DNA of 47,661 nt from Candidatus Goldiibacteriota bacterium (GCA_020052235.1 JAGVPM010000087.1:1-47661); one strand, 5' to 3'. Counted from the stretch's first letter, positions 13,479-36,224 are shown. The notes: generated from the sequence alone by a model not told the origin. A program made the numbers and translations.

Positions 13479-13479
13479 C

Positions 13480-18631: not shown

Positions 18632-18660
18632 ATTTTTAAGCTAAAATCTCTTTGTATAAT
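18632..18660 (+). promoter_or_regulatory. Probable promoter of the FIST gene
   Basis: A perfect -10 TATAAT lies at 18655-18660 in the AT-rich divergent gap (18503-18754). The -35 position holds only ATTTTT. Transcription would begin near 18667 and give a leader of about 88 bases. The leader contains GCCTT (18705-18709), AAGGC (18713-18717) and GCCTT (18723-18727), so two alternative short hairpins can form just before AAGGAGGT (18742-18749). Confidence 0.5.
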
Positions 18661-18754
18661 TAACAAAATACCGATGATATTGTGGAAGAATTATTTCCTA
18701 CTCGGCCTTAACAAGGCAAAACGCCTTTATTCCAAACTAACAAGGAGGTAGGCT

Positions 18755-19885: not shown

Positions 19886-19915
19886 AAACGATCTGGAAGC
19901 TCCAACATTAACCGG

Positions 19916-20140: not shown

Positions 20141-20153
20141 TAAACTTGGTTAA

Positions 20154-20195
20154 CCCAGGGACGGTGCCCGTACGCCGTCCCTGGGGTTTATTTTT
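20154..20195 (+). terminator. Terminator-like hairpin between the small gene and the chemoreceptor gene
   Basis: A perfect 11-base stem, CCCAGGGACGG (20154-20164) with CCGTCCCTGGG (20175-20185), has a 10-base loop and is followed by GTTTATTTTT. It begins 14 bases after the small gene stop and ends 20 bases before the chemoreceptor start, so it could stop or attenuate transcription into that gene. Confidence 0.85.
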
Positions 20196-20214
20196 ACGGA
20201 TGAGGAGATCAAAG

Positions 20215-21408
20215 ATGCCGAGCCGTCATTTTGATATACCGGATTTTTTTCAACATATGCTCCCTATCGCGGGACTCGTTTGGGTTAGTGCCTTATTATC
20301 CGCGGTTCTGGCCAACAACTTGAACTGGACCTTGACCTGGGCGAGCTTGGCTCTGGCTCTGGCCGGAGGCTCAGGTTTGGCTTATTGGAATTTAAAACGT
20401 ACTTCGGAAACACCTCCGGTTCTAACCGAACGTCTGCAGGCCTTGGCTGAAGAACGAGACCCCGGTAGCTTGCCTGCCGGGGAAACCGATCCCCTGCTTT
20501 TATACAGCGATATAATCCGTCAACGCCTCGCCCGGATGCAAATTTCGGAAAAAAATTCCCCCAAGTCTTTCAAACTGGAGGAGTACCGCCATTCGGTGAC
20601 CGAATCATTCAGTTTGATTTCCCGATTGACCCAGTCCATAGAGCAAATCACCACCACGGCCAACCAGCAAAGCGAACGCATCAGCGATATCAGCACCATT
20701 GCCGACCGGATGCATGAATCTTTTATTCAAGTCTCCGAATATATCACTCAGGTGGTGGACCGCAATAAAACCTCCATCTCCACCGCGACGCAAAACCGTT
20801 CAGCCGCCGCTCAATCGGTTGAGCTGATGCTGCAAATCAAACATATCCTCAACAGTTACATCAACCTCATCAAGGAAATGGGCGGTTCCAGCCAGGAAAT
20901 CAGCAAGTTCGTCGAGATCATCAAACGTATTGCTTCCCAAACCAACCTGCTGGCATTAAACGCCGCCATCGAAGCCGCGCGCGCCGGGGAACATGGCCGG
21001 GGATTTGCCGTAGTCGCGGATGAAGTCCGTAAATTGGCCGAACAAAGTTCAACTTCCGCCAAAGACGTCACCCAAATCATTAAAAGTGTCGTACAACAAA
21101 CCCAAAAAGCCTTGGAGATCTCTTCTGAAAACGAAGCCACTGTTTCCCAGGTGCAAAATGTTGCCGACCATTCCCTGGAGGCTTTGGCCGCTTTGGAGAC
21201 TTCCATGCAGTCATTCTCCCAGCAATTTCTGCAAATCAGCGAATTAACCGAACGTCAGGTAGGCGGGATCAATACCATCAAGATGGGTTTGCAGGATTTA
21301 AGCTCCATTGCCGAAGAATTTGCCGCCACTACGCAGGAAGTCAGCGCTGCCGGCACGGAATTAAAAGATCATCTAAACCGCCTCAGCCGCTTCTCCGGCG
21401 AAATATAA
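20215..21408 (+). CDS. Methyl-accepting chemotaxis protein without periplasmic sensor
   Basis: The 397-residue protein has two adjoining membrane helices (about 15-34 and 40-58) with only a few residues between them, a linker, and a long coiled-coil signalling domain (about 120-390). The conserved hairpin tip that binds CheA/CheW is clear: [20 protein letters not shown] at about 239-258 and [18 protein letters not shown]. There is no periplasmic ligand domain and no obvious HAMP, so input must come from the membrane or from a cytoplasmic partner such as the FIST protein. The start at 20215 has GAGGAG 7 bases upstream; earlier in-frame codons lie in the terminator. No che genes are in the window. 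Confidence 0.92.
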
Positions 21409-21416
21409 CCTGTATT

Positions 21417-22031
21417 TCACCAGTCGATTTCATCCGGTTGGCGCGTTGTTGTACTTTTCACCAATGAGCTGCCCGGACGAAACGGATAACCCGCCTTGGT
21501 CAATTCCCGAATATAATCCGCCAAACCCTCGGGGGGTAAAGAAAAAATATCCGCCGGGCTGTAACTCTCCACGGTTTCCCCTTCACCGGAGTCCAGGTGA
21601 GCTTTTTTATCCGCCGCGGAATTTTCCACGCGCTGTTGTTCCTCACCTTTACGCCCTGGGCGCTTTTTCGCGCCCAGGCCCGGTTTTGCGGAATTCGCAG
21701 CAGGCGTGCCGGATTCTATTTCCATGCGCCGGCGGGCCAATTCCAAATTAAACCAGGCATCTTCATCATCCGGCCGGATGCGCAGCGCTGATTCAAAATA
21801 GTCCGCTGCCTTTTGCCAGTGCCCCTGAAAATATTCGGCATTCCCCGCATTGTATAATGCCGCCGCACCTAACGCGGGATATTTAAACACATTCCGGTAA
21901 TAGTGTTCAGCGGCTTGATAATTCCCGGCTGCGTATAATCGGTTTCCGGCATTGTAATAATTCTCAGGCGGAACTCCCGCCAAATGAATCAGCCAGTTAT
22001 AAATCCACAAGACGGCAATGAATTGAGTCAC
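21417..22031 (-). CDS. BatC-like TPR protein of the second Bat set
   Basis: The 204-residue protein has an N-terminal hydrophobic segment (about 2-20) and about two or three TPR repeats (about 26-110: YYNAGNRLYAAGNYQAAEHY, AALYNAGNAEYFQGHWQKAA, DDEDAWFNLELARRRME). A basic, low-complexity tail follows. It starts at GTG, overlapping the upstream VWA stop as GTGA. It has the place of BatC at the end of a Bat operon. It ends 8 bases from the convergent chemoreceptor gene, with no strong terminator between. Confidence 0.75.
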   Translation of the reverse strand: MTQFIAVLWIYNWLIHLAGVPPENYYNAGNRLYAAGNYQAAEHYYRNVFKYPALGAAALYNAGNAEYFQGHWQKAADYFESALRIRPDDEDAWFNLELARRRMEIESGTPAANSAKPGLGAKKRPGRKGEEQQRVENSAADKKAHLDSGEGETVESYSPADIFSLPPEGLADYIRELTKAGYPFRPGSSLVKSTTTRQPDEIDW

Positions 22032-23080
22032 GCGCCCCGCCTTTCCCCGGCTGCCCAAACCAACATTTCCGCCAGCAGTCCCATTCCCATTAACAAAATT
22101 GCCCAAGGGAATAATTCAATTGCTTCAGCCCCGGTCACACCACCGCCAGCGGGCATTTTTGACTGAATTTTATTTTTCAACCAGGGATGCCTCTGCAGGG
22201 CAACCACCAATCCTTGCCACAAGGTTGCATTGGCATCCTGAATCTGCACATACTCCCCGGTGCCGATTTGCGCCAAATGCCGGAGCCCTTGGGGTTGCAA
22301 GCGGCTGTGGACACGCTGCCCTTGATGGATTCGAAAAATAGGCTTTCCCCAAAAATCGGCCCCCAGGGGAATCGGCCCTCCTGCTTCGGTTCCCACCCCA
22401 ACGGTAAAAATCGGTATTATTTGTGCAGCTGCCTCCCGTGCGATTTGTTCCGGGTTTCCCGGCCGGTTCATTTCTCCGTCAGAAAGAAGCACGATGGCCG
22501 CGGGCATGCTTGTCCGCGTGCGGATAATTTTTTTCAAGGCCAATTCCAGGCCGCAGTCTGCCTGCGAACCGTGTTGGCCCAACATTTTGGCCTGAATTCC
22601 TTCCACGGCTTGCGCGAAAGCCCAATGATCCAGTGTGGGCGGGCAAACCACCTTGGCTTCGCTTTCAAACACAATCAGACCCAGCGGCGCCTGCGGGAGC
22701 AGGCGCATGAGTCCCAAGCAAAAACGCTTGGCCAGAGTCAGCCGTGAAGGAGCCGCATCCTGTGTTTGCATGCTGAGGGACGTATCCATAACCATATAAA
22801 CAGTCCAAGGTGTTGTTGCCGATGAGGAATGCGAATTTGAAATCCACTGGGGGCGGGCCAGCCCCAAAACCAGCATGGTCATGCTGAAAAACCACAGTCC
22901 CATTCTCCATCCGTACCCACGTGAATCAGGCGGCCGCTGTTGCAATCCGGGCCAAAGTCCGGTTTCGGCAAAAATTTCCCGGTGGCGTGATTGCCAGCGG
23001 CAATATCCCAGGTAAGTGCCGATAAAAAACGGATAGGCCAGGAACAACCAGGCCGCATGAGGATACAAGAATCGCAGCAA
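22028..23080 (-). CDS. BatB-like VWA membrane protein of the second set
   Basis: The 350-residue protein has N-terminal helices (about 8-24 and 58-74), a VWA domain (about 93-300) and a C-terminal helix (about 325-345). The metal site starts DTSLS (Asp99, Ser101, Ser103) and ends with Asp201 in LLSDGEMN. The third position, normally Thr in GTAIGDAL, aligns with Ser172 in GSQADCGLEL, a departure from the other three VWA proteins here. Translation begins at TTG, shortly after a strong GAGGAGG. Membrane-bound with the domain in the periplasm; probable partner of the upstream VWA protein. Confidence 0.82.
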   Translation of the reverse strand: MLRFLYPHAAWLFLAYPFFIGTYLGYCRWQSRHREIFAETGLWPGLQQRPPDSRGYGWRMGLWFFSMTMLVLGLARPQWISNSHSSSATTPWTVYMVMDTSLSMQTQDAAPSRLTLAKRFCLGLMRLLPQAPLGLIVFESEAKVVCPPTLDHWAFAQAVEGIQAKMLGQHGSQADCGLELALKKIIRTRTSMPAAIVLLSDGEMNRPGNPEQIAREAAAQIIPIFTVGVGTEAGGPIPLGADFWGKPIFRIHQGQRVHSRLQPQGLRHLAQIGTGEYVQIQDANATLWQGLVVALQRHPWLKNKIQSKMPAGGGVTGAEAIELFPWAILLMGMGLLAEMLVWAAGERRGA

Positions 23081-23116
23081 ACGCCACCCTCCTCAAAATC
23101 CCGTTTATAATTAAAT

Positions 23117-23146
23117 TGTAGAGACGCAAAATTTTGCGCCTCTACA
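23117..23146. repeat. Perfectly placed palindrome at the BatA-like gene end
   Basis: TGTAGAGACGCAAAA (23117-23131) and TTTTGCGCCTCTACA (23132-23146) form a nearly perfect hairpin with one mismatch. The stop codon of the upstream VWA gene (23142-23144) is inside it. The same core occurs as an interspersed repeat in other bacteria, so it is probably a mobile repeat rather than a terminator, though it could act on the transcript. Confidence 0.75.
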
Positions 23147-24206
23147 CAGAAAACAGCCGCCGAAAATAAATCGTACCCAATAAAAATTCCAATCCCATGC
23201 ATACAAACGCCGCGAGCAGCGGAATCCAAAACAAATCCCGCGGCGGTCCCGCCGAAGACCGGCGTCCGGTATCCGCTTCCCATTGCGCCAAGGCATGTTT
23301 CAAGGCATTAAATGCATTCGGGTGGTCCAAGCGCAGAAACAATCCGCGGCCATGACTCTGCGCCAATTGTTGCAGCCCGCGTTCATCCAAGGTTTCCCAA
23401 TTTTGAATTTGTCCATAAGGGTCCAACACGGGTTGGCGTTTTCCTGATATTTCATTATACGCTAACCGTACAGTTGGTTGCACGCGTCCCACCCCCACCA
23501 CGCATACTTCAATCCCGCGCTGCCCCAATTCACGCACGATGGGCAACGGATCCATACCGGTATGATTGGCGCCATCGGTCAGCAACAACAGCGCCCTGGG
23601 CGTTTGGGACGGACCAGGCTGGAAATCCGGCAATCCCGGGGTATGGAATTCCAAACGCTGTTGCGCCAAGCGCAGGGCATCCCCTATGGCTGTACCCGCC
23701 CCCGGACTGTCTTGAATGGTCACGGCGCGCAACGTGTCCAAGAACATCTCATGATCATTGGTAAGCGGGACCAAGGAAAGGCTGCGCCCGGCAAAAATGA
23801 CCAATCCAAAACGGGCGTCAGTATGTTTTTGAATGAACTCTTCCAGGAAAATTTTGGCGGCCGCCAACCGGTTGGGTGCAATATCCTCGGCCTGCATGCT
23901 CTTGGAAACATCAAGCAGCAACAAAACATCCAGCACCCGTCCTTGATCCGGCATGCCGGCAGCCGGTGTCCAGGGACGCGCCAGAGCCAAAATCAAACAC
24001 AACCAAGCAAAACTGCGCAGCACAACCAGGCTGTATCGCCCATATTGTCCCGGTGTCCGCATTATCTGAAGCATTAAAGGGACCCGGGTGAACGTTATCC
24101 CGAGTAAGCGCTTCTCGCGCCAATAGGAAAAACCAAATGGAATCAGCACGACCGGCAATAACCAAAAAAAAGCCGGATACATCCAATGCCAGGCAAATAA
24201 GTTCAA
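23142..24206 (-). CDS. BatA-like VWA membrane protein of the second set
   Basis: The 354-residue protein repeats the Bat layout: helices near 10-28 and 58-77, VWA domain about 92-300 and C-terminal helix about 330-348. The metal site is complete, with Asp99, Ser101 and Ser103 in DVSKS, GTAIGDAL and LTDGANHTG. The apparent start is TTG, overlapping the BatD-like stop as TTGA and lacking a clear ribosome-binding site, so coupling is likely; an ATG eight codons later is an alternative. The last codons run into an interspersed palindrome, which supplies the stop. Confidence 0.85.
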   Translation of the reverse strand: MNLFAWHWMYPAFFWLLPVVLIPFGFSYWREKRLLGITFTRVPLMLQIMRTPGQYGRYSLVVLRSFAWLCLILALARPWTPAAGMPDQGRVLDVLLLLDVSKSMQAEDIAPNRLAAAKIFLEEFIQKHTDARFGLVIFAGRSLSLVPLTNDHEMFLDTLRAVTIQDSPGAGTAIGDALRLAQQRLEFHTPGLPDFQPGPSQTPRALLLLTDGANHTGMDPLPIVRELGQRGIEVCVVGVGRVQPTVRLAYNEISGKRQPVLDPYGQIQNWETLDERGLQQLAQSHGRGLFLRLDHPNAFNALKHALAQWEADTGRRSSAGPPRDLFWIPLLAAFVCMGLEFLLGTIYFRRLFSV

Positions 24207-25291
24207 TTGGATTTAGGTTTAGGTTCGCCGCTCCCGGCTTTTTCAGGCGCAACGGAAGCAACCGCCTCCCCATATTGGGCAACAGGCACTTCCCCCTCCC
24301 CAGGAGCGGTTTCACCTTCGGGGGGCGGGGGTGGTTCACGGTAAATGCGTTTGTCCGGGTCCAAAATAATCTGACGCGCGCGCGAGTCCACGCTGTCCAG
24401 CAATTCCTTTTCCGGGACCAAGTTGGCAAATTTAACAAAGTCACTCTCATTAAAATAAGGACGGTAGCGGTCGATAAATTCCGGTTTGAAATCCAGCCGT
24501 TCCATTTCCGCGAACAATTCGCGCGTGGTCATTTCCTGAGCTTTGAAATCAAAAGCTTCCTCCAGGTAGCGGCGCACCACCATGTTAAGCAGCGTATAGA
24601 GTTCGTTGATTCTGCCTTCTTTTTTCAAACGTTCAGCGTCTTTCAAGGCATCCAAAGCACGCTGTTCCGGAGTCCGGGGATCCACCGGCTCGGATGGCGC
24701 TACGGGTTGCGGGACAGGCCGGTGACGCCAATACCAAACCCCAAATATTACAGCGCCGATCAATACACTACCTACCAAAATCGGCAACCATTGATTTAAG
24801 GAAATATGGGCAAAATGTTTATTGGGACGCAAAACCCCGATTTCCGGAGTGGGCGTGGGTAACGCCGTCACGCCCGAGGCTTCATTAATTTGAATGACTA
24901 CCTCATTGGTTTCCTTGGTTACACGCTGGCGTGATTGAGGATCGAGCCACTGAACTTTCGCAGGTGGAATGGTAATAACCCCTGTATGGTTGGCAATGAG
25001 GGGCAATTCCTTAAAATTGACGACGTAAGTCCGGCCGTTTAATATATTGATGGAAGAACGGGTTATGCTGTCCTGAACTTGGAAGGATCCGAGCAAATCA
25101 GGTAAAACAATATCCGGCGTGGTTTGTTGGGCACTGGCCACCATGACTTCAACCGTATACAAAACGGTATCACCCAGGTTGGCCGTGGCGCGATCGGCTT
25201 GGGCCCTAAAATAATCCGTCGCTTCCCCGGCCCACACGCAGGGGTTAATCACGCCAACAAGCATTGCCATCATAAACAGTTGCCGCATCAT
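24203..25291 (-). CDS. BatD-like protein of the second set
   Basis: The 362-residue protein has a signal peptide (about 1-21), a beta-rich domain starting DYFRAQADRATANLGDTVLY, a linker, one transmembrane helix (about 167-187, LPILVGSVLIGAVIFGVWYW) and a cytoplasmic helical domain (about 205-300) with a Pro/Glu-rich end. The order beta domain-helix-helical domain equals that of the BatD-like protein at 17531-18502, and both carry an EEAFDFK/FLDYLRNKFG-type helical region, so they are paralogues. It heads the second Bat set. Confidence 0.76.
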   Translation of the reverse strand: MMRQLFMMAMLVGVINPCVWAGEATDYFRAQADRATANLGDTVLYTVEVMVASAQQTTPDIVLPDLLGSFQVQDSITRSSINILNGRTYVVNFKELPLIANHTGVITIPPAKVQWLDPQSRQRVTKETNEVVIQINEASGVTALPTPTPEIGVLRPNKHFAHISLNQWLPILVGSVLIGAVIFGVWYWRHRPVPQPVAPSEPVDPRTPEQRALDALKDAERLKKEGRINELYTLLNMVVRRYLEEAFDFKAQEMTTRELFAEMERLDFKPEFIDRYRPYFNESDFVKFANLVPEKELLDSVDSRARQIILDPDKRIYREPPPPPEGETAPGEGEVPVAQYGEAVASVAPEKAGSGEPKPKSN

Positions 25292-25338
25292 CCCATGTCA
25301 CCTGTGCTTATTTTAGCGTATTTTAAATTATTCCGCAG

Positions 25339-25887
25339 TTATTTTTTCTTTGCAGCTGTGCTTACAACTTTTTTCACTGCGCTTGATTCATCTTTTACGC
25401 CATCGGAAATTTTCAAATCCGAAATTTTCGCTACGCGCTCAAAACCTTCAAGCCAAATTTCAATCCAAAAGGAATGTTTACCGCTCCAGGGAGTCTTGCC
25501 TGCAATCTTAGCGGAATATTCACCGGCTTTATACGCCTTAAAAAGTTCGTGTGAATCATACGGTTCAGAATTGGTCATCAAATTGACCTTGATATCGCCT
25601 TTAGGAATATCTGCCAACAACCTAAAAGAAATGATTGTATTTTCATCTATGTTTACAGAAATGCCATTTTCAGCCGACATTATTTTTCCGAAATTATTTT
25701 CCGTGTTGGTTTTAATTGTCATCATACCTTTATCAACTTCTTTGAAGGCATTAAACCCAGGATTAGTACCCTCATCGCGCCAATTGCTATAATCTTCCTG
25801 ATATAAAATTTTCGCCTGTACAGCCTGTGCAATCCCGACTAATCCCAGTATCATCAAGCCAGTTAAGCTCATCTTTAGCCGCTTCAT
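25339..25887 (-). CDS. Secreted protein of unknown function
   Basis: The 182-residue protein has a clear signal peptide (MKRLKMSLTGLMILGLVGIA, cleavage probably after AQA near 22-25) and a beta-rich mature part ending in a lysine tail (AAKKK). The mature part, with YQEDYSNWRDEGTNPG near its start and HSFWIEIWLEGFERVAKISD near the end, looks like a small jelly-roll or LamG-like sandwich, but I do not recognise a family. It is AT-richer than its neighbours. AGGAGAAGGA precedes the ATG. It lies between tonB and the second Bat set and could be a periplasmic accessory. Confidence 0.8.
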   Translation of the reverse strand: MKRLKMSLTGLMILGLVGIAQAVQAKILYQEDYSNWRDEGTNPGFNAFKEVDKGMMTIKTNTENNFGKIMSAENGISVNIDENTIISFRLLADIPKGDIKVNLMTNSEPYDSHELFKAYKAGEYSAKIAGKTPWSGKHSFWIEIWLEGFERVAKISDLKISDGVKDESSAVKKVVSTAAKKK

Positions 25888-25973
25888 GATTCCTTCTCCT
25901 TTTATCTGTAGGTAAAAACAGATTAAAGCCTATATTTGCCCATCAAATAACCGAAGTCAAGAAAAATACATTT

Positions 25974-26888
25974 TCATTGCCGGAAAGTAAAGCGGATGAT
26001 AATGGAACCCTTTTGTTCCGCCTGTTTGACGTTTAAGGGCAAAGGGGCAAAAACATATTTCTTCAACGCTTCAATGGCCAGCTTGTCCAATTCCGCGTAG
26101 CCGGAGGTTTTTTCCACAAACAAACGATCCCCCACTTCTCCGTCCGGATTCACCACAAAACTGATAATCACTTCGGCTTCAACACCTTTTTCTTCCAACC
26201 AACGGGGCATTGCCGGTTTTTCGCGGTGCAAAATTTCACGATTTTTCACTTCACCAGAAATCAAGGTATCCCGGCTTAAACTCAAGTGTTTGGCCGCATC
26301 AACATTAGTGACTTGTTTACGCTCAGACTTGACTTTTTTAATGATCAACTCGGGCTGTTGAAATCCGCGGCGGGAAATGTCCGGCCCAAAGTCCGCAGGC
26401 GGCAACTCATCGGGAACCACCTTGGTGTCGAGTTCCTGAAGGGGCGAAACTTCGGCATGCACCAGATTGATCTTTTTTATGGGCATGGGAGCGAGATTGG
26501 GTGCTGGAGCTTTTTCAAGTTTAAGCTTCGGCAAAGCCGCCAAATGCGTCAAGTCGGCTTCCGTAACCATATCCTGGGCCGGCAATGCATGAACACCCAC
26601 CACTTTCTTAAACGAGGTCTTTTCCAATTCCGCCATGGCCGCGTCAATGGATTCCGCCTTGGTCGGCGGCGGGAGCGGTTTGACTGGGGCGGTTAATTTA
26701 TTCATTAATTTTTCAATTTCCGTGGGTTTGGGAGCTTCTTCCATATATTCGACTTCGGTGAGTTTCAATTTCTGAGAAGTAGGGCCTATTTTCCCCGAAC
26801 CGAACATGCTCAATAAAACAGCATGTAAAACCAAAGAACCTATAAGGGTTATCTGCAAACGTCCATTCGGGCGGTCCAAAAAAAACAT
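25974..26888 (-). CDS. TonB-family energy transducer
   Basis: The 304-residue protein has a short cytoplasmic start, one transmembrane helix (about 12-30, ITLIGSLVLHAVLLSMF), a long Pro/Lys/Glu-rich periplasmic spacer, and a TonB C-terminal domain (about 222-304). The domain shows EVIISFVVNPDGEVGDRLFV, a Tyr/Ala-rich helix DKLAIEALKKYVFAPLP, and a final strand GSIIIRFTFRQ. It would transmit proton-motive force from ExbB/ExbD to an outer-membrane partner. ACGGAG precedes the ATG. It follows an ExbD gene by three bases. No TonB-dependent receptor gene is in the window, so the partner is probably not a classical receptor. Confidence 0.9.
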   Translation of the reverse strand: MFFLDRPNGRLQITLIGSLVLHAVLLSMFGSGKIGPTSQKLKLTEVEYMEEAPKPTEIEKLMNKLTAPVKPLPPPTKAESIDAAMAELEKTSFKKVVGVHALPAQDMVTEADLTHLAALPKLKLEKAPAPNLAPMPIKKINLVHAEVSPLQELDTKVVPDELPPADFGPDISRRGFQQPELIIKKVKSERKQVTNVDAAKHLSLSRDTLISGEVKNREILHREKPAMPRWLEEKGVEAEVIISFVVNPDGEVGDRLFVEKTSGYAELDKLAIEALKKYVFAPLPLNVKQAEQKGSIIIRFTFRQ

Positions 26889-26891
26889 GGG

Positions 26892-27311
26892 TTACTCCGT
26901 TTTGGATTCAGTGCCGAACGTTATACGCCGGGCACCGGCCTGTTTGATGAAATTCAAAGCATCAATCACGGCTCCGCTTTTCGAATTTTCATCGGCGCGA
27001 ATAACCACTAATTTATTCCGGCTGCGGCGGAGCTTTTCGCGGATCAAATCCTTAAACTCCGGTAAACTCACCTTGGTTTCATTGACCGCCAACTGCCCGT
27101 CCGGTGAAATGGCCACAAATAAATTTTCTTCCTTGGTTTGCTCTGCCGTGTGGGCCTTGGGCAGTTTAATTTCAAACGGCGGCTGCAAAAACATGGCTGT
27201 CGTCACCATGAAAATGATTACCAACACCAAACACACATCCACCAAAGGGGTGACATTAATGTCGGTTAACAGGGCTTTGGGATTTTCACTGCGCATTTTG
27301 CTTTTCAGCAT
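26892..27311 (-). CDS. ExbD/TolR-family protein, second copy
   Basis: The 139-residue protein has one helix (about 18-38) directly after INVTPLVDVCLVLVIIFMVT, the ExbD signature with the proton-path aspartate, and a periplasmic domain (about 50-139) ending GARRITFGTESKTE. An open frame extends 39 codons further upstream, but those codons lie in an interspersed repeat. I start at MLKSKMRSENPK, 7 bases after GGAG. It is the second of two ExbD genes in the cluster. Confidence 0.9.
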   Translation of the reverse strand: MLKSKMRSENPKALLTDINVTPLVDVCLVLVIIFMVTTAMFLQPPFEIKLPKAHTAEQTKEENLFVAISPDGQLAVNETKVSLPEFKDLIREKLRRSRNKLVVIRADENSKSGAVIDALNFIKQAGARRITFGTESKTE

Positions 27312-27347
27312 AATAAGCTCCAATACTTTCCGGGCTATTGTTTTGCC

Positions 27348-27422
27348 GTCATACCGGCGGAAGCCGGTATCCAGGAATATAAATTTCAAAGTTTTCTGGA
27401 CCCCGGTTTTCACCGGGGTGAC
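27348..27422. repeat. GTCATACCGGCGGAAGCCGG repeat between the two exbD genes
   Basis: Left arm GTCATACCGGCGGAAGCCGG with TATCCAGG (27348-27375) and right arm TTCTGGACCCCGGTTTTCACC with GGGGTGAC (27394-27422) are two back-to-back copies of a well-known type of interspersed repeat, in inverted orientation. It separates the two exbD genes and is translated in one frame as a false N-terminal extension of the downstream one. Confidence 0.85.
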
Positions 27423-27439
27423 GAACATTACCTAAACGC

Positions 27440-27877
27440 TTAGGGCTGAGCGGGCGCTGCACTCTCGGCCTGAGATTTGCCTAAAATCACCAAATTTTCC
27501 GCTCCGGCTTGCTTGGCGATGTCCATGATTTTCACCACTTGCCCATGCCGGATTTCCCGGTCGGGATTAACAATAACCCGCTTTTGCTGCGATGTCTGCA
27601 ACATGCTCCTCAGCAGTTGGGGAAGTTCCTCTTCCTTGACCACTTGCTGGTTTAGACGAATTTCTGAGTTTTCCAATTTTATAATGATGTTATCTTTTTG
27701 GGTGCTCGTGGATTGGACATCCACGGTTTTCTTTTCCCCGGAAGTGACAATGATCCCGCTCTGTAAAAACATAGGGGCGGTGGCCATGAAAATAACCACC
27801 AACACCAGGCTGACGTCCACCAAAGGCGTCATATTGATGGTGACGATCGGTTTTTTATTGTCCAGCATCATAGCCAT
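27440..27877 (-). CDS. ExbD/TolR-family protein, first copy
   Basis: The 145-residue protein has the ExbD helix (about 16-36) beginning NMTPLVDVSLVLVVIFMATA, again with the conserved aspartate, followed by a periplasmic domain with VIVNPDREIRHGQVVKIMDI. It forms a proton channel with ExbB. AGGGG lies about 10 bases before the ATG, and 11 bases separate it from ExbB. Two ExbD genes per ExbB suggest a heterodimer or separate partners. Confidence 0.92.
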   Translation of the reverse strand: MAMMLDNKKPIVTINMTPLVDVSLVLVVIFMATAPMFLQSGIIVTSGEKKTVDVQSTSTQKDNIIIKLENSEIRLNQQVVKEEELPQLLRSMLQTSQQKRVIVNPDREIRHGQVVKIMDIAKQAGAENLVILGKSQAESAAPAQP

Positions 27878-27888
27878 GACAAATTCCC

Positions 27889-28500
27889 CTACCGTTTCAA
27901 CATGAACAAAATTTGCTCAACCGAGGCTTCGATGTCCGTGATGGTTTGACGCACCCGCGAAACATAGTAGTTGTAAAAAATAACCGCCGGAATAGCCACC
28001 ACCAAACCGGCCGCCGTGGCCACCAACGCCTCGGCAATACCCGCGGCCACCACATTGGGGCCCCCGGAACCGGCTGCCGAAAGGGACTGAAAGGCTTTGA
28101 TAATGCCAATGACCGTGCCGAGCAGTCCGATAAACGGCGACGTATTCCCCAGGGTACCCAAAATGCCCAGAAAGCGTTCCAACTGGACTTCCTCTTTTTT
28201 AATCAAACTGGAAAGCAAACTGGTCAAACTCTCCAAGGATTCCTTATAATTTTCCAACGTAGCTTTCACAATCCTGCCCATGGGTCCGCGTTGCTTATCG
28301 CAAAATTCAATGGCCCCGGCGATATTCTTTTTTTCCAGCAAAGGTTTTAATTGTTTGATGAACTTATCGCTGTCGGTTAAATTGCGCCAATAATAAATGG
28401 CCCGTTCCAAAATAAACACCACCGACAATACCGAACAAAACAGCAGCACCACCAGGGTTGGGCTTGATACCAGCAAGGCCATCCATTTGACATCCATCAT
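27889..28500 (-). CDS. ExbB/TolQ/MotA-type proton channel
   Basis: The 203-residue protein has three membrane helices (about 10-30, 112-140 and 155-178) and the family motif GTVIGIIKAFQ followed by GIAEALVATAAGLVVAIPAV. It is the channel subunit that harvests proton-motive force with the following ExbD proteins. GGAGG is just upstream of the ATG. The next 160 bases upstream hold an interspersed repeat, so a promoter here is possible but not seen. Confidence 0.94.
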   Translation of the reverse strand: MMDVKWMALLVSSPTLVVLLFCSVLSVVFILERAIYYWRNLTDSDKFIKQLKPLLEKKNIAGAIEFCDKQRGPMGRIVKATLENYKESLESLTSLLSSLIKKEEVQLERFLGILGTLGNTSPFIGLLGTVIGIIKAFQSLSAAGSGGPNVVAAGIAEALVATAAGLVVAIPAVIFYNYYVSRVRQTITDIEASVEQILFMLKR

Positions 28501-28550
28501 TGTATTTCCTCCAAGAGTGATTAGACTACAGCTGCGTTTTTAATGCATGC

Positions 28551-28629
28551 TGTCATTTCGAGGAGCTTCAGCGACGAGAAATCTGAACGCAACACATGAA
28601 TTAGATTTCTCGCTTCGCTCGAAATGACA
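28551..28629. repeat. TGTCATTTCGAGG...CGAAATGACA repeat upstream of exbB
   Basis: Left arm TGTCATTTCGAGGAGCTTCA plus GCGACGAGAAATCT and right arm AGATTTCTCGCTTCGCTC plus GAAATGACA are inverted with a 20-base spacer. Such elements are widespread in unrelated genomes. It fills the 160-base gap (28501-28660) between exbB and the OmpA-like gene; I see nothing else there. Confidence 0.85.
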
Positions 28630-28660
28630 ATTGTTTTCCAAAACGCTGCTTTTCCCCGCC

Positions 28661-29587
28661 TTAAGGCTGCCCGGTTTTTGCACCCGCCTGCTGAGCGCCG
28701 GGCTTCAATGCTGTTATTTTTACCATAGCTTCGCCTGTTGCGGGAGCATTTTTTATACGAATATTTTTCAAACGCAAATTTTCCCGTGAAAAATACGTTT
28801 TTAAAGCCTGGGCCCGTTCGCCGGAAAGATCCTGATCCGGCCCGGTGCATTCAATTTCCAGAACCCACGCATCCTGTTGATTGACCAAATTGGAAACTTC
28901 CTGGACAACTTGCTGACCCAGTTTGGAAAAACGATTGCGCTTCGCATCAAATACGGAATCCTGCATAAACGTCAACGCCATCTTCAGCGGCTCTTCCCAC
29001 ATAAATTGGTCCAAATAAAACATTTTTTGCGGCAAATTAACCCGGGCGCCATAATAATCCTCCAAGGTCAATTCCGGGATATACGCTTGCCCGGCTGTTA
29101 CGGGATTGTATTGCGAGTCACGCCCGTTCCACGCAAATGCCTCGGGAGGATTGCCCACGCCGCTGAAGGTTTTCACTTCCTTACCCGTTGTATCCCTCAC
29201 GGTCACCGACCAGCGGGCAATTTTCAGGCGGCTGGAATCCAAATGCCCGAGCACGAACACCATGGATTGTTTGAAATAACTTGCCCAGGGCGTGTAAACT
29301 TTGTAACTCGCCAAAGGAACGGGATCCACTTCCTGGTACAAATACCGCGCTTCGGAAGGCGATTTTGTGCCTTCTTGCTTTTTAGCCAATGCGCCGATTT
29401 GAAAACTGACATCCAACCGGGCGAATAAAAGTTTGCGCTCGGTCTGAATAACCGCGCGATTTTTCCCAGCCGCGGAAAAATCCTGGGCTGTCGGCGTCAC
29501 GTCAGCCCAAACCCCTGGGCTTAAAAATGCGCAACCCACCACTGCGGTTATCATAATGCCCCTCAATTGCTTTGCATGCCGGTGCAT
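28661..29587 (-). CDS. Secreted protein with FlgD-like and OmpA-like domains
   Basis: The 308-residue protein has a signal peptide (about 1-29, ending GVWA), a beta-rich middle part with a FlgD/Ig-like section (RWSVTVRDTTGKEVKTFSGV and PPEAFAWNGRDSQYNPVTAG), and a C-terminal OmpA-like fold (WVLEIECTGPDQDLSGERAQ followed by ALKTYFSRENL). The OmpA part lacks the usual NRRVE motif, so peptidoglycan binding is uncertain. AGGG lies upstream of the ATG. It lies between the large TPR gene and exbB, so it is probably part of the same envelope complex. Confidence 0.72.
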   Translation of the reverse strand: MHRHAKQLRGIMITAVVGCAFLSPGVWADVTPTAQDFSAAGKNRAVIQTERKLLFARLDVSFQIGALAKKQEGTKSPSEARYLYQEVDPVPLASYKVYTPWASYFKQSMVFVLGHLDSSRLKIARWSVTVRDTTGKEVKTFSGVGNPPEAFAWNGRDSQYNPVTAGQAYIPELTLEDYYGARVNLPQKMFYLDQFMWEEPLKMALTFMQDSVFDAKRNRFSKLGQQVVQEVSNLVNQQDAWVLEIECTGPDQDLSGERAQALKTYFSRENLRLKNIRIKNAPATGEAMVKITALKPGAQQAGAKTGQP

Positions 29588-29590
29588 ATT

Positions 29591-32500
29591 CTATCCCTTC
29601 GACTGACTCTGCAAAATCCGTTGCAGCAATTTAATTCTTTTCTGAGCCGCATCCCGCCACTTGGGTTGGCGGGTAACTTTCATCAGGCGTTGATAAACTT
29701 CCACGGCCGAAGCCCATTTTTTGGCTTGTTCGTACACCGAGGCCAAGTCCACCAACGCCAGGGAATATTCTTCTTGTTTGGGGTCGCCCTTTTCCATCAG
29801 GCGTTTCAAAACCGCTTCACGCTTCTCGTTATCTCCCTGTTCCTGGTACATACCGGCCAATCCGAGCCACGTTTTTAAAACCAACTCCTGATCCTTGCCG
29901 GTTTCCAATTTCCGCAATGCCGCCTCGGTCCCGGCGCTGTTTTTTTCAGCTGCCTGCATCAAAACCAGCCGGGAAAGACTAAGGTCCGCGTTGGAATCTT
30001 TGGGATAGGTCTGGGTCAACTTGGTATAATATTCAATTGCTTTGGCGGGCAACTGGATTTTTTCATAAGTCACTGCTGCGTTATACCAAGCGCGGGGCTG
30101 ATATTCCTTCAACGCATATTGCTCGGCACAAGCCGCAAAATGTTCGGCCGCGGCCGGGTAACGCTCCAATTGAAATTCAGTGGAGGCCAAACGTAACATC
30201 ATTTCGGGAGCCAACTCGTGCTGCGGATAGTTCTTCAAGAAAGCCTCGGTCTGTTGGGCGGCGTTTAAAGAGTTCCCCAACTGCTCCTGACAAACAGCCA
30301 GATAATATTGCGCATTGGGGGTCCGCGGGCTTTTGGTATAGGTTAATACAAATTGCAAAAACTCATGGACCCCTTCCGCGTATTTTTCTTTTTGATAGTA
30401 CGCTTCCCCGATGCGGTACTGAATATCTTCAGCCAAATTGGAACCCGGGAATTTTAAAATAAATTCGTGAAAAACCGGAATGCTGTTTAACCGGTCGGCA
30501 ATCCGGTAAGACGCGGATTCAATGGCATTTTTAGCCTCTTTGGCTTCATCCGTTTCGGGATAAGTTTGCAAAATCCGCATAAACCGCGGGATGGCATCCT
30601 CGTCTTTTTGTTCATTGTAATACGTTTGGGCAATGCGCAATTCATACGCCTTGCGGTCTTTGGAATCCGGGAAACGTTTCAGCAGATCGTCATAAACATT
30701 CCTAGCCTGGGTATTTTCACCGCCCTGAAAATAAGTATCCGCCATCCAGGCCAAGGCTTGGCTGGTCTCGGGCGCTTGCGGATATTTCCGCACCAAGTCT
30801 TTCCAGGTTTCCACGGCATCCAAATAAGCTTTATTCAAATAATGCGCCCAAGCGATTTGAAACAAAACCCTCGCGGCCTCGGCATGATCCCCCGCGGAGG
30901 TAAGCCATAATTGATACGCATGGATGGCCTCGGGATATTGCTGTTGGTTGAAAAACGCATGCGCCCGGAGCAAGGCAATTTCATTTTGCATATATTCGGG
31001 AACATTTTTACTTTTTAACAAACGCTCGCTTTGCGTCAGCACCGAGGCATAGTCCTGCAATTGAAAACCGCACCAAACCAAACCCGCCCAAACATAAATT
31101 TCAACTTTACCGCGAGGATAAAAATTCAACGCCTTGTGATAATATTCACGCGCGGCCGTATAACTGGCTTGATGGTAATACGCTTCCGCCATAAGCAGCC
31201 GCACCCAAGCCGCGGTTTCGCGGTATTCCAAAGCCGGTTCCCGGTTGGCGATATCTTTTTCCAACAAAGCCCATTGTCCCACCAACGTTTGGACATCTTG
31301 CCGGTTCATGTAGAATTCCGCCAATAAGTACAAAGCCAACTCGGCCAACGGATCTTTCGATTCCACCAGCACGCGCACCGAACGAAAAGCCAGCGTTTCC
31401 CGCCCCGCCTGCAGATACGCCCGTACTGCCAAAACATGCGCAAGACTATCCGGATGCCCGGTCTTTTGAAAATATTCATTTAAGGTTTTAGACGCCTGCT
31501 CCCAATTGCTTAACATCGAATGCACATACGCTAATTTCAACAGCCACTCGGAGCGGTAGGCTGAGCGCAATTCCAAAGCACTGGAATAGGCATTGGCCGC
31601 TTCGGCCAGGCGGTTCAGGTTCAAGGCGGCTTCCGCCAATACACTTTGCACCAAAGCACGGTCATTTTCCGGTAAGCGTTCCAGAAGCGGCTTCAATTTC
31701 GGATATCCGTCTAAAACCCCGTCAAAGCGTGCTTGCGACAGCCACACCAACAGCCGGATCAAGGCTGCTTTGGGTGCAAAAGGACTTTGCGGATACTTCG
31801 CCAGGTACTGTTCACTCAGCTTCCCTGCCGACAAATAATCTCCGGATTTATAAAATGCCCGGATTTTAAAATAACCTGCCATCAGCTTATGCGAATCTTG
31901 ACGCGCTTTTTCCAGCGCTTGATTATAGGCTTCAATTGCCGTGAGAAAACGTCCCTGCGTTTCCAAAATCGAACCCGCGAACAACTGAGCCAAAGGATCA
32001 TCGCTGAGTTCTTCGTACAGTTTTAGGGCATCGAATGTTTGGCCCTGATATTCCTTCATGATGCCGAATAAAAATTTGATATCCGGGTCCAGCAAGGCGC
32101 GCGGGTAGGCTGCCAGCAGATTGGTGAACATCTGCCGGGCTTCGTTGAGGCGTTGTAATTTCAAATTGGTTTTTACCAGTGCCAGACGGATCTGCGGAAA
32201 TAAAAAATCAGCCTGCGAATCGCGGGTCAAATCATTCAGGATATCCGCGGCTTGAGCATAATCCCCCCGGTTGTACGCCAACTCGGCTTCACGAAAATAA
32301 GCGCTGACTTTCAAGGGACCCTTAGGAGCCGACGCCGCCAATCCATGATACAAGGGGCGGGCAATCTCCGCCGAACCTGCGAGCCGGTAATTTTCCGCCA
32401 AAAAAAATTTGGCGGCCAGCTGATGCTCGCGGTCCGCTTCCTGGGTCAGGTATTGATTCAGACTTTGAATGCTTTGGGGATAATTTTTAGATAAATAGGC

Positions 32501-32668
32501 ATGAATGGCATTTTGCCAGGTTTCGGCGGCCAAAGTCGTTTGCGCCCAGGCTGCGGGAATTCCTCCCGTGCCGAGCAAACACGCAACCAGTATTCCAATT
32601 ACCGTGAATCGATTGTGCCGGGAAATCAACGAATTACTCCAATCCCTAGTCATTACGACAGACGCCAT
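29591..32668 (-). CDS. Large secreted TPR-repeat protein
   Basis: The 1025-residue protein has an N-terminal signal or anchor (about 20-42, FTVIGILVACLLGTGGIPAA then WAQ) and is otherwise a solenoid of TPR and TPR-like helices, with many A-x-x-x-Y-x-x-L and KYP/FP turns such as LVRKYPQAPETSQALAWMAD, LLKRFPDSKDRKAYELRIAQ and EAFLKNYPQHELAPEMMLR. The C-terminal part resembles YbgF/BamD-type repeats. It is most likely periplasmic or bound to the outer membrane and scaffolds other proteins. The ATG has a weak site, and a second start lies five codons on. The gene abuts the OmpA-like gene by 3 bases. Confidence 0.88.
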   Translation of the reverse strand: MASVVMTRDWSNSLISRHNRFTVIGILVACLLGTGGIPAAWAQTTLAAETWQNAIHAYLSKNYPQSIQSLNQYLTQEADREHQLAAKFFLAENYRLAGSAEIARPLYHGLAASAPKGPLKVSAYFREAELAYNRGDYAQAADILNDLTRDSQADFLFPQIRLALVKTNLKLQRLNEARQMFTNLLAAYPRALLDPDIKFLFGIMKEYQGQTFDALKLYEELSDDPLAQLFAGSILETQGRFLTAIEAYNQALEKARQDSHKLMAGYFKIRAFYKSGDYLSAGKLSEQYLAKYPQSPFAPKAALIRLLVWLSQARFDGVLDGYPKLKPLLERLPENDRALVQSVLAEAALNLNRLAEAANAYSSALELRSAYRSEWLLKLAYVHSMLSNWEQASKTLNEYFQKTGHPDSLAHVLAVRAYLQAGRETLAFRSVRVLVESKDPLAELALYLLAEFYMNRQDVQTLVGQWALLEKDIANREPALEYRETAAWVRLLMAEAYYHQASYTAAREYYHKALNFYPRGKVEIYVWAGLVWCGFQLQDYASVLTQSERLLKSKNVPEYMQNEIALLRAHAFFNQQQYPEAIHAYQLWLTSAGDHAEAARVLFQIAWAHYLNKAYLDAVETWKDLVRKYPQAPETSQALAWMADTYFQGGENTQARNVYDDLLKRFPDSKDRKAYELRIAQTYYNEQKDEDAIPRFMRILQTYPETDEAKEAKNAIESASYRIADRLNSIPVFHEFILKFPGSNLAEDIQYRIGEAYYQKEKYAEGVHEFLQFVLTYTKSPRTPNAQYYLAVCQEQLGNSLNAAQQTEAFLKNYPQHELAPEMMLRLASTEFQLERYPAAAEHFAACAEQYALKEYQPRAWYNAAVTYEKIQLPAKAIEYYTKLTQTYPKDSNADLSLSRLVLMQAAEKNSAGTEAALRKLETGKDQELVLKTWLGLAGMYQEQGDNEKREAVLKRLMEKGDPKQEEYSLALVDLASVYEQAKKWASAVEVYQRLMKVTRQPKWRDAAQKRIKLLQRILQSQSKG

Positions 32669-32760
32669 GGTGCCTTACCGCAGTTTCGTCCGAACTACCA
32701 TATTTTAATTGGCTTGAGTCGATGAATTCCTTGATCATTCGGTTGCCGAATCCGGACGGA

Positions 32761-34494
32761 TCATTTCACTGTGGGTTTGTTCTCTTTCCGGAGATGCTGT
32801 TGGTTGAACATTTCCTCAACGTCTTTTGAATTCATCTGCATTTCATAAACCTTGACTTTTTCCTTCTGTTTTTCAAGATCTTCGTACCGGACAATATCCT
32901 CGGGTTTAACCGGCTCGGTTTTGGAAACCGCAGGAGCAGCTTCCGGAGCCGCAGTGTCTTTGGATGCCTCCAAACCCGAGGGTATCAACACTTTCAATTC
33001 CACCCGGCGATTGGCGGCTTGGCCCTCGGGTGTCTTATTGCTGGCCACGGGACGCGTGTCGCCATAACCTATGGGAATTAAATTATCCGGATTAAACTTA
33101 AACCGGCCTTTTAAATGTTCTTTCACGGCCTCAACGCGGGTTTGCGAAAGCTTCAAATTCGCTTTGGATTTTCCTTGCGCATCGGTATGGCCTTCAATTT
33201 TAACCTTAATGGCCGGGTACTGTTCCAACACCGAACCAAAGCGGTCCAAAGTCGTAAAAGATTCTTTCATTAAAATGGCTTTCCCGGGTTTGAATTGAAT
33301 GGCCGGGGCTTGGCCCAGTTTGATTAATTCATTCACGCGGTTAATTTCGTTCTTAGCCCGCTCAATGTCATCCTGCAGTTTGCTCAACATTTCCTTAAGT
33401 TTGGTTTCTTCCCGGGAGCGCGCCCGGCTTAATTCCTGCTCTCGCTGGGCTGCCATATTTTCTTCGGCTGTAATAACCAAGGTTTGCGGTTTTGGAGGAA
33501 GCACAATGACCTTGGTAGGCGTCGCCTGCTGGCCCCAACTGGCAGTCAGCGAAAAACGATGCGTCCCGTAGGTTTTTGTTTTTTCTACATAAGAAGGCAG
33601 CGCAAAAGCATAATCAAATTGCAACTGCGTCATGTTCAGCTGCGGGAAGGCATAGCGTCCGGTTAACCCTACTGTAAATTCCGTCGAGTTTAATCCCAAG
33701 CGCGCGGCCGCCAAGCCCTGAAAAAACCAACTCTCGGCGCCAAAACGGAACGTATTCGTGTTTTGCGCATAACTGCGATTGGCCCATTCGGTGGACAGCA
33801 ATACGCTGTCCAAAGCTGTTTTTAAAGATGTAAGATCCTGACTCCAGGAAAGACCAGCCCGAAAATTGCGCGGAACCTCTTCATAAGTAGTCACCCCTAC
33901 ATCAGCAGGTATGATATTTTCCACACACAGGCCCGCGACAAACTGCCGGCGCAAGGGATACAACAACGCCAAATCAGCCGTAACTCCGGTTTTCGACAGG
34001 GGTTCGGTATAATCGTTGCCCGGAACATTCCAATTCAAAATTTTAAAATTACCGCCTACGTGAATGGTTTTGGTTAGATAATTCAGCGTCCTGGCATACG
34101 CAAAATTAAAAGTATTTTCATGATATAATTCAGAATTAAATTGGGACCAAGAAGTGCCGAAATATCCAATCTCCGGATTAACCGGGACGGACGCGGCCAC
34201 ATAATTATAACTAAGCGCATCACGCTGACCAGTGAACAAACGGCCTTCAAAACCCCAAAATAAATTCGCGTACATGGTGGTGATTTCATAACGCCGCATG
34301 GCAGCCAAGCCCGCGGGGTTCCAATTGATGGTATTGACGTCGTCGGCCACGGCCACAAACGCACGCCCCAAACCGGCCGGACGCACACCAGCGCCATAAT
34401 CAAAAAAATAGCCCATGGCCGAAGAGACCATCAGCCCCATGGCCAAGGCCAGCCCTATTCCTCTCAATATGTTTACCCTGAAGCGCACCATCAT
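32761..34494 (-). CDS. PorV-like outer-membrane barrel fused to an OmpA domain
   Basis: The 577-residue protein has a signal peptide (about 1-28), then a beta-barrel (about 29-320) opening with GAGVRPAGLGRAFVAVADDV then NTINWNPAGLA, the hallmark of the PorV/PorQ/UPF0164 family. A helical linker (about 343-393) with many Glu/Arg heptads follows, then an OmpA C-terminal domain (about 397-505) with GHTD (435-438), LSQTRVEAVKEHL and NRRVEL (495-500), expected to bind peptidoglycan. The last 70 residues are charged. PorV proteins are part of type IX secretion or similar export. The fusion links an export-type barrel to the cell wall. It overlaps the upstream gene as ATGA. Confidence 0.85.
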   Translation of the reverse strand: MMVRFRVNILRGIGLALAMGLMVSSAMGYFFDYGAGVRPAGLGRAFVAVADDVNTINWNPAGLAAMRRYEITTMYANLFWGFEGRLFTGQRDALSYNYVAASVPVNPEIGYFGTSWSQFNSELYHENTFNFAYARTLNYLTKTIHVGGNFKILNWNVPGNDYTEPLSKTGVTADLALLYPLRRQFVAGLCVENIIPADVGVTTYEEVPRNFRAGLSWSQDLTSLKTALDSVLLSTEWANRSYAQNTNTFRFGAESWFFQGLAAARLGLNSTEFTVGLTGRYAFPQLNMTQLQFDYAFALPSYVEKTKTYGTHRFSLTASWGQQATPTKVIVLPPKPQTLVITAEENMAAQREQELSRARSREETKLKEMLSKLQDDIERAKNEINRVNELIKLGQAPAIQFKPGKAILMKESFTTLDRFGSVLEQYPAIKVKIEGHTDAQGKSKANLKLSQTRVEAVKEHLKGRFKFNPDNLIPIGYGDTRPVASNKTPEGQAANRRVELKVLIPSGLEASKDTAAPEAAPAVSKTEPVKPEDIVRYEDLEKQKEKVKVYEMQMNSKDVEEMFNQQHLRKENKPTVK

Positions 34495-35444
34495 TTAATA
34501 ACCACCATGGTCCCTGAAATGAAATGCCCTTCCACTTCAATTTGATACAAGTATAAGCCGCCCTCCACCCAATGTCCGTTGGAATTGCGGCAATCCCAGT
34601 AACGGGTATTATCCAACGTCACGATCGGATATCCCGTGGGATCATAAATTTTAATGCGAATCTTGGAATCGGGCGAATTGGTGTAAAAATTAAAATAAGC
34701 CCTCTGCCCCAACACCGGTTTAACCGGATTAGGCGTAACATAACATCCTTTGTTGAAATCAAAGGGATAATGGAAAAAATCCATGACCATTTGACCCACA
34801 AAATCCTGAGTCGAAAGCACACCGCGCAAATCCGCGGCAAAATAAAGAAACGCATTGGTTCCTTGTATTAAACGGCCAGGCAAGGGATAAGTGCCCAGCC
34901 CGCTGACACTGGCCACCACGCGATCATTACGTTCCGCATCCCATGTGGGAATACGGTCGACATCCGAACGATCATAGACCGTGCCCCAATACCGCAGCGT
35001 ATTGTCGTAAAACCCCAACCCACCCGCAACGACGGTTACGGATTGAGGTGTGCTCCAAGTGGAGATAACACCCAGATCGGTTGGATAGACTTGCCAATAG
35101 AGGGGGATTTTTTCCGCCGGAGTCGTGTACCCGCGCAGACCGCGATACAAGCCATCCGGGGTTGCATTGGCCGTGCTGGTCAAACGCTGGCGATTATCCG
35201 AGTACAACTCAATGCCCCAATTCATATTCTGGTTCCCGGAAAAATTAAGTTGTAAATAAAAAGGCATCAGGGTCAAACCCTGATTGCGGTTCATTTTGGG
35301 TAAGGATAAACTGCCGTTAAAGGTATAAGCAGGAATGGTCAGACTAAAAGCATCTATAGTCACAAATGAAGCCTGCACCGGGCAAACTGTATAAACCCAG
35401 AACAAAGCGGCCAAAAGTAAAATTTTCCTGTAATTAACGCGCAT
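34491..35444 (-). CDS. Secreted protein with FlgD-like C-terminal domain
   Basis: The 317-residue protein has a signal peptide (about 1-25), a beta-rich body I do not recognise, and a C-terminal immunoglobulin-like region (about 235-317) with KIRIKIYDPTGYPIVTLD and then HWVEGGLYLYQIEVEG and GTMVVIK. That end resembles FlgD-type Ig domains and type IX secretion sorting domains, in which a YxYxI/V strand and a basic end are usual. It overlaps the PorV-OmpA gene by four bases, suggesting that the two act together. Function unknown. Confidence 0.78.
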   Translation of the reverse strand: MRVNYRKILLLAALFWVYTVCPVQASFVTIDAFSLTIPAYTFNGSLSLPKMNRNQGLTLMPFYLQLNFSGNQNMNWGIELYSDNRQRLTSTANATPDGLYRGLRGYTTPAEKIPLYWQVYPTDLGVISTWSTPQSVTVVAGGLGFYDNTLRYWGTVYDRSDVDRIPTWDAERNDRVVASVSGLGTYPLPGRLIQGTNAFLYFAADLRGVLSTQDFVGQMVMDFFHYPFDFNKGCYVTPNPVKPVLGQRAYFNFYTNSPDSKIRIKIYDPTGYPIVTLDNTRYWDCRNSNGHWVEGGLYLYQIEVEGHFISGTMVVIK

Positions 35445-35459
35445 GTTGTATTAACTCCA

Positions 35460-36224
35460 TCAATTCATACGGGCCGCATTAAACGGTACCATTTTCTCAG
35501 AACTTTTGGGCACACCCACGGCTTGGTTCCCATACAGCGTATCCCAGAATATTCGCACATGCAATTCACCCACACCTGGAAAAATCGGCGCAGACCCGTG
35601 CGCGCTCATGGACAGGATATCCTTGGGAAACACAGGTTGTTCGCTTCTAATATCCATTTGCCATACGCGTTTGCCTTGGCTGTCGTTCACCCACGCCAGA
35701 CCAAACGGAGCCAAATGCAAAACACCCTGGTTTATAACCTGAACATTCACTACCAAAAGTCCATCGGGCATGAGTTTGGATTCCACGCTCGTAATTTCAC
35801 CCGAGGCCCGGCGCTCGTTGTTAAACCGGATAATAATCGGCATGCCCATCCGCACGTTTAATGAAATCGGCGCATTTACCTTTTCCCCGGCAAACAACGA
35901 AAGAACGCATTCCCCCTGGGCATCGCTCCCGCACTTTAAAATAACAATTATACGTTGATGGGCTTTCGGCTCTAATCTAATCTTGGCCGGTTCAACGGAA
36001 CACCAGTTTGCCAAAGTTTCTGTTAACGGTCCCGGCTTCCGGTATTCAAGCTTAAAAGTCACATCTTTAGCTGTATCCTGATTATTGGTAACTTCTATTT
36101 CCGCGGTATGGTTTTGTCCCTTTTGCAAAGATAAAATCAACATTTCCGGAGAAAAAGAAACTTGCCCCCAAACGGTTTCCATCAACCCCAAAAGCACAGC
36201 CAATGACATCCAAACGCTTTTCAT
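35460..36224 (-). CDS. Secreted chaperone-like immunoglobulin-fold protein
   Basis: The 254-residue protein has a signal peptide (about 1-20, ending VWG) and a mature part starting VSFSPEMLILSLQKGQNHTA, with AEIEVTNNQDTAKDVTFKLE and IRLEPKAHQRIIVILKC. This is the strand pattern of periplasmic pilus-chaperone N-terminal domains (a P-x-x-x-x-L-x-P-G-x-s-x-x-x-x-V-x-N type layout). Two cysteines (around 91 and 114, 8 in all not seen) may form a disulfide. It is first in the region 4 operon. A TATAAT is 7 bases before its ATG, so either the start lies nearly at the 5' end of the transcript or a second promoter exists. Confidence 0.72.
   Translation of the reverse strand: MKSVWMSLAVLLGLMETVWGQVSFSPEMLILSLQKGQNHTAEIEVTNNQDTAKDVTFKLEYRKPGPLTETLANWCSVEPAKIRLEPKAHQRIIVILKCGSDAQGECVLSLFAGEKVNAPISLNVRMGMPIIIRFNNERRASGEITSVESKLMPDGLLVVNVQVINQGVLHLAPFGLAWVNDSQGKRVWQMDIRSEQPVFPKDILSMSAHGSAPIFPGVGELHVRIFWDTLYGNQAVGVPKSSEKMVPFNAARMN

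Follow-up and report, generated by a model that had tools for sequence, protein, structure and literature searches.

Introduction

Could a proton motor of the Ton/Tol type power the export or movement of surface proteins outside Bacteroidota? The question is raised by a gene cluster of a Candidatus Goldiibacteriota bacterium, located on the minus strand at 21417–36224 of a 47,661-nt stretch of DNA (the window, on which positions are counted), in which an ExbB-ExbD-ExbD-TonB motor set accompanies a PorV-type outer-membrane barrel, a long tetratricopeptide repeat (TPR) protein and Bat proteins. The window corresponds to contig C109 in a metagenome-assembled genome of 3.17 Mb (G000, 99% complete). 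Type IX secretion systems (T9SSs) have been described as limited to Bacteroidota or the Fibrobacteres-Chlorobi-Bacteroidetes (FCB) superphylum and as powered by GldLM (PMC10994853, PMC11205867), and searches of the open-access literature returned no account of a T9SS driven by an ExbB-type motor or occurring beyond the FCB group. A sequence-only reading of the window had proposed that 13–14 contiguous genes make up a single energised envelope machine with similarities to Tol-Pal and to gliding or type IX parts. We compared the window with 384 genomes, comprising 45 of its own phylum (probably FCPU426/Goldbacteria) and 339 outside it, and we scanned the fetched loci with profiles built from the window genes to define the shared unit. 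The resulting block is deeply conserved; it carries a predicted Ton-type motor, and homology links it to carriers and tags of a T9SS-like kind.

Results and discussion

A conserved block inside the cluster

The genes are tightly packed, as had been read from the sequence: the minus-strand open reading frames (ORFs) are present, and several overlap by a few bases or almost touch. They are transcribed in the order a, b, c, d, e, ExbB, ExbD, ExbD, TonB, j, BatD, BatA, BatB and small TPR (Table 1). The conserved unit is smaller than 13–14 genes, its core consisting of b, c, d, e, ExbB, both ExbDs and TonB (~26–35.4 kb); the Bat genes and j adjoin this core in some relatives only. Across the fetched loci, a block of PorV, ~1000-aa TPR, ExbB, ExbD, ExbD and TonB recurs in fixed order, with the e family kept in all blocks. 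It is present in most of the phylum and in 11 outside genomes (G069, G115, G159, G186, G216, G250, G251, G296, G317, G323 and G381), where contig ends leave some blocks only partly visible. Because gene order is conserved in and beyond the phylum, an accidental arrangement, which would have undone the proposal, fails as an explanation for the core, and the conserved order lends support to a proton-driven machine of the kind suggested.

The genome itself holds three copies of the block, one in the window and one each on contigs C116 (L079) and C166 (L080). The window-type copy, common to the order, places e between TPR and ExbB, with a and b upstream, and its PorV bears an OmpA domain; the PorV of other copies bears a FlgD-like tail. 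In one relative (G002) the a-b-PorV trio lies ~16 kb away from the TPR-to-TonB part. Full-length block members score >900 bits against the TPR profile. Second-tier matches (~200–800 bits) were considered as block variants and rejected, most of them being receptor-type TPR-barrel-ExbB-ExbD-TonB loci.

The PorV-type carrier and its putatively tagged partner

The barrel protein c scored 58 bits against the PorV family model NF033709 (cut-off 90), and its OmpA domain was recovered at E 7e-19. The best solved-structure match of the carrier profile was the T9SS PorV (6h3i_F, E 1e-15). In an AlphaFold model, c has 14 barrel strands and the OmpA domain; Foldseek aligned this barrel to PorV (6h3i_F/8gl6_F). 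We thus predict a PorV-family carrier.

A gene whose product ends in a putative T9SS-type C-terminal domain (CTD) precedes PorV in every one of the 21 copies for which a PorV could be recognised and the DNA upstream of it was available, directly in 18 and with one small gene between in 3. The background is 49/1005 ORFs, and 0/11 for same-strand receptor-type or unlinked TPR loci. The domain spans ~90 residues. Most of these tagged proteins are giants, with bacterial immunoglobulin (Ig)-like domains in those tested; the window has the small protein b. The best solved match of the tag alignment was the PorU export domain (CTD, 6za2, E 1.9e-7), and TIGR04183 was matched by 13/15 tag members; the tag of b itself scores below the family cut-offs. 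The pairing is reminiscent of T9SSs in which type B substrates have carriers of their own, such as SprF for SprB (PMC12635249).

SprA without GldM

The genome also encodes a 2136-aa SprA homologue (contig C134, L149:7161-13571). A four-member profile built on this family matched SprA 6h3i_A at E 4e-33, predicting a SprA-type translocon in this organism. The profile detected SprA in 45/45 genomes of the phylum and, at E ≤ 1e-20, in 116/339 outside it; at E ≤ 1e-5 it did so in 222/384 genomes. Weaker matches were discounted and the strict threshold kept because the fn3 repeats of the query also hit unrelated proteins and inflate weak scores. GldM (TIGR03517) was detected in 0/45 phylum genomes and in 4/384 overall, GldL not being searched separately. 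A C25 peptidase with the PorU-type fold occurred in 4/44 phylum genomes, including this one. Directly after SprA, several genomes of the phylum encode a large CTD protein (L153–L157).

A predicted Ton/Tol-type motor

The motor protein ExbB matches TolQ and ExbB structures; TolQ is nearest among solved structures and likewise among NCBIfam models. With two ExbD/TolR-type proteins that retain the membrane Asp and a TonB arm, the set is predicted to be a Ton/Tol-type 5:2 motor. The S and H of the S-x3-H motif in the TonB helix are invariant in an alignment of 12 relatives. In an ExbB tree (n = 45), block copies form a single clade (Shimodaira–Hasegawa-like approximate likelihood ratio test, SH-aLRT, 99), separate from receptor-linked ExbBs and from E. 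coli ExbB/TolQ.

Comparison with L038 and L040 indicates that the conserved part of ExbD 2 begins at ~27311. Its listed start (27428) is probably too early and the true start near 27311; the extra N-terminus at 27311–27428 (MFVTPVKTG...DTGFRRYDG) reads like a translated dispersed repeat. In six loci outside the phylum (L131, L132, L134, L144, L162 and L164), one of the two ExbDs has Asn or another residue in place of the protonatable membrane Asp, which suggests that the ExbD pair is unequal in the motor of these blocks. Other ExbB operons in the genome comprise TPR-barrel-ExbB-ExbD-TonB (C114), ExbB-ExbD-TonB-receptor (C120) and a set on C193, whose ExbB groups in the window-type branch of the tree. 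The C193 set (L081, 3015–7610) is an ExbB-ExbD-ExbD-TonB array beside a caspase-domain gene, lacking TPR and PorV, with a likely extracytoplasmic function (ECF) sigma/anti-sigma pair by eye and a first ExbD split into two frames.

Of the scaffold proteins, e was modelled with AlphaFold, and Foldseek recognised a FlgD-like Ig domain and an OmpA/MotB-like domain. The TPR protein d has CpoB/YbgF-like matches. NF052312 (SprE/PorW) matched 14/14 TPR members (best E 5e-41), with all tested scores below its cut-off and generic TPR models scoring higher.

A candidate energy chain for a carrier-adhesin pair

We give about an even chance to the reading that a Ton/Tol-type proton motor is here linked with a carrier-adhesin pair resembling that of T9SSs and serves export, anchoring or movement. 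By analogy, the proton motor would consist of an ExbB pentamer enclosing an ExbD dimer, for which two ExbD genes are present, and the TonB-like arm would span the periplasm. Together with the long TPR scaffold and the peptidoglycan-binding FlgD/OmpA-like proteins, this arm would act on the PorV carrier and the CTD protein. Passage of the tagged protein through the outer membrane would rely on the SprA-type translocon, whose gene lies elsewhere, after which the PorV carrier would take the protein over; the pair would then be released, anchored or moved by force from the proton motor. In the window copy, a small tagged protein takes the place of the giant adhesin of other copies, and its carrier has the OmpA domain. 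We infer from gene content and homology that the products form a complex, that export runs through SprA and that the output is export, anchoring or motion; the motor would then stand in for the GldL/GldM chain that supplies energy in Bacteroidota. More tentatively, SprA-type export might be common beyond Bacteroidota and draw its energy from Ton-type motors in organisms lacking GldL/GldM, with the block as the chain for one carrier-adhesin pair, possibly moving the adhesin across the cell surface in gliding.

The co-occurrence with SprA is consistent with such a coupling: SprA is found in 11/11 outside genomes with the block against the background of 116/339 (p 5e-6), and in 9/9 after collapsing genera (p 5e-5), counts in which genomes and species are not phylogenetically independent. 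That dependence weighs against the coupling, as do several further observations. SprA lies on a different contig from the block, and it occurs in ~105 outside and ~12 phylum genomes where no block was found, so the block motor is not obligatory for SprA. Two outside genomes (G186 and G323) have the TPR-to-e part with neither PorV nor CTD. FlgD_ig is matched by the tag as well. Among the fetched loci, PorV-type barrels are in general paired with a CTD gene (29/38); the pairing is therefore a rule of the carriers and no proof of a link to the motor.

Compared with the T9SS and gliding machinery of Bacteroidota, the block shares a PorV carrier beside a putatively CTD-tagged surface protein, a genomic SprA, a proton motor and a long TPR protein (cf. 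SprE/PorW). It differs in that its motor is ExbB-ExbD-ExbD-TonB and SprA is encoded outside it, that GldM was not found, that only the few phylum genomes noted above have the PorU-type C25 peptidase, and that the PorW/SprE model stays below cut-off.

Alternative functions and related systems

The TonB family protein and the FadL-type fold of PorV (Foldseek) would also suit import, in which the motor would open or drive an outer-membrane barrel (PorV-OmpA or nearby large barrel-like proteins) for uptake of polysaccharides or hydrophobic compounds. The case is strongest for the window-type copy, given its sugar-related neighbours in three relatives: a sugar-permease-like gene beside the block in G004, and a glycosidase-like gene before TPR in G002 and G005 (by eye). 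A cluster of similar content in Fibrobacter is, moreover, upregulated on cellulose and has been read as importing cellodextrin (PMC6851124). However, the block contains no plug domain or TonB-dependent receptor. The sequence-only reading had already noted the missing receptor, and Pfam searches of the window cluster agree. Receptor genes do exist at other sites of the genome, in some cases with a dedicated ExbBD-TonB next to them, and the ExbBs of these separate systems fall outside the block clade. Import would also leave the CTD adhesin beside PorV unexplained, and we consider it unlikely. Resemblance to Tol-Pal invites a different explanation, namely that the motor moves OmpA-type anchors (e and PorV-OmpA) and so holds the outer membrane to peptidoglycan. 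A TolQ-like motor, a TolA/TonB-like arm, CpoB-like TPR matches and two proteins with OmpA-like domains fit this idea; YbgF matches, however, are generic for TPR proteins. TolB and Pal are absent from the cluster (TolB was not searched in the rest of the genome), which instead has two ExbDs and a PorV with its CTD partner. The presence of three copies in a genome, with a separate PorV partner for each, fits dedicated devices better than one housekeeping system, and tethering seems to us improbable.

The Agl-Glt gliding and spore-coat machinery of Myxococcus (an AglR-AglQ-AglS motor with GltG, GltD, GltE and GltC) likewise combines a single ExbB with two ExbDs, a TonB-like arm and long TPR proteins, and a core copy was reported in Fibrobacteres (PMC3169522). 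Membership of the block in this family was nevertheless rejected on GltC scores and on the distinct gene content and TPR family of the Glt clusters examined, leaving it a very slight chance. GltC scored above cut-off in none of the phylum genomes. The GltC clusters (L187–L194) differ in content, having neither the PorV/CTD pair nor adjoining ExbB-ExbD-ExbD, and their long TPR proteins reach 102–187 bits against the block TPR profile. The AgmX/PglI tail weakly matches 4/12 TonBs, and that of the window is not among them.

The suggestion that such a complex had not yet been described was not supported. FSU_2396-2403 of Fibrobacter succinogenes encodes OmpA, TPR, TPR, ExbB, ExbD, ExbD and TonB (PMC6851124, PMC4619616), a gene content very similar to that of the block. 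Tagged cellulases of this species have been proposed to use a T9SS (PMC6851124). The block offers an alternative reading of this published ExbBD cluster, in a cultivable organism, with homology as a lead and not a result. SprA-like genes in about one-third of the outside genomes and in every genome of the phylum, with GldM nearly absent, put their power source in question. The block is a concrete, testable candidate for powering SprA-type systems and may represent an unrecognised way of driving surface-protein export or movement outside Bacteroidota.

Gene identities and neighbouring features

Pfam and NCBIfam searches bore out the gene identities first assigned by reading, recovering ExbB, two ExbDs, the TonB C-terminus, PorV-OmpA, TPR, BatD, two BatA/VWA proteins and the small TPR protein. 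Protein a had no family match at gathering level and is perhaps a periplasmic chaperone.

Table 1. Genes of the cluster in transcription order, with positions in the window.
Feature	Position	Strand	Evidence or remark
a, secreted 254-aa protein, Ig-like start	35460..36224	(-)	upstream neighbour of the core, common to relatives in the order
b, secreted 317-aa protein, putative T9SS-CTD/FlgD-Ig-like C-terminal tag (~34494-34778)	34491..35444	(-)	local CTD profile E 1e-24
c, predicted PorV-type 14-strand outer-membrane barrel, coiled coil, OmpA peptidoglycan-binding domain	32761..34494	(-)	family matches, AlphaFold, Foldseek, profile
d, 1025-aa exported TPR scaffold protein	29591..32668	(-)	
e, signal peptide, disordered stretch, FlgD-like Ig domain, OmpA/MotB-like domain	28661..29587	(-)	AlphaFold model and Foldseek
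ExbB/TolQ-type motor subunit	27889..28500	(-)	PF01618 E 1e-35; TolQ/ExbB structures; tree
ExbD 1, transmembrane Asp kept (TPLVDV)	27440..27877	(-)	PF02472 E 2e-22
ExbD 2, transmembrane Asp kept (TPLVDV)	26892..27428	(-)	PF02472 E 1e-26
TonB-like force transducer, S-x3-H in membrane helix	25974..26888	(-)	PF03544 E 4e-10
j, secreted 182-aa protein without known family	25339..25887	(-)	lineage-specific neighbour, outside core
BatD	24203-25291	(-)	Bat neighbour, outside core
BatA (VWA)	23142-24206	(-)	Bat neighbour, outside core
BatB (VWA)	22028-23080	(-)	Bat neighbour, outside core
Small TPR/BatC-like	21417-22106	(-)	Bat neighbour, outside core

The VWA proteins, taken at first for machine parts, are BatA and BatB beside a complete MoxR-DUF58-Bat set at 12663–18520, and they adjoin the block in some relatives only. 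Because of this complete set, we take the Bat genes to be a neighbouring known locus. The stretch 12663–25291 contains the MoxR ATPase, DUF58, BatA/BatB VWA, BatD and TPR genes of a MoxR-Bat (aerotolerance) locus. Bat genes follow TonB in the window, in L087 (G002) and in L086 (G005), and a BatD fragment stands at the contig end of L038 (G001). L040 (G004) and L085 (G006) have no Bat genes after TonB and carry j-like proteins and a ~1200-aa protein instead. VWA transducers have been proposed beside such motors (PMC12204202); as force transducers of this machine the Bat/VWA proteins were rejected as the main reading, a TonB being already present and the VWA proteins being BatA/BatB of variable adjacency.

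In G004 and G006 the j-like proteins occur repeatedly and as fusions with larger proteins. At L040:3799-9347 (G004), tandem j-like proteins are fused to a 1206-aa protein with a SlpA-type beta-barrel match, and a sugar-permease-like gene (by eye) adjoins this region. Between e and ExbB, a palindromic element at 28551–28629 has 12-base perfect arms (TGTCATTTCGAG) 55 bases apart and resembles a dispersed repeat. A single 3085-aa open frame at 37238–46495 has no Pfam match at E ≤ 0.001 and shows nitrilase-like and ChaN-like parts by eye. The plus strand between the two Bat sets (18755–21408) encodes a FIST-domain sensor and a protein of the methyl-accepting chemotaxis type.

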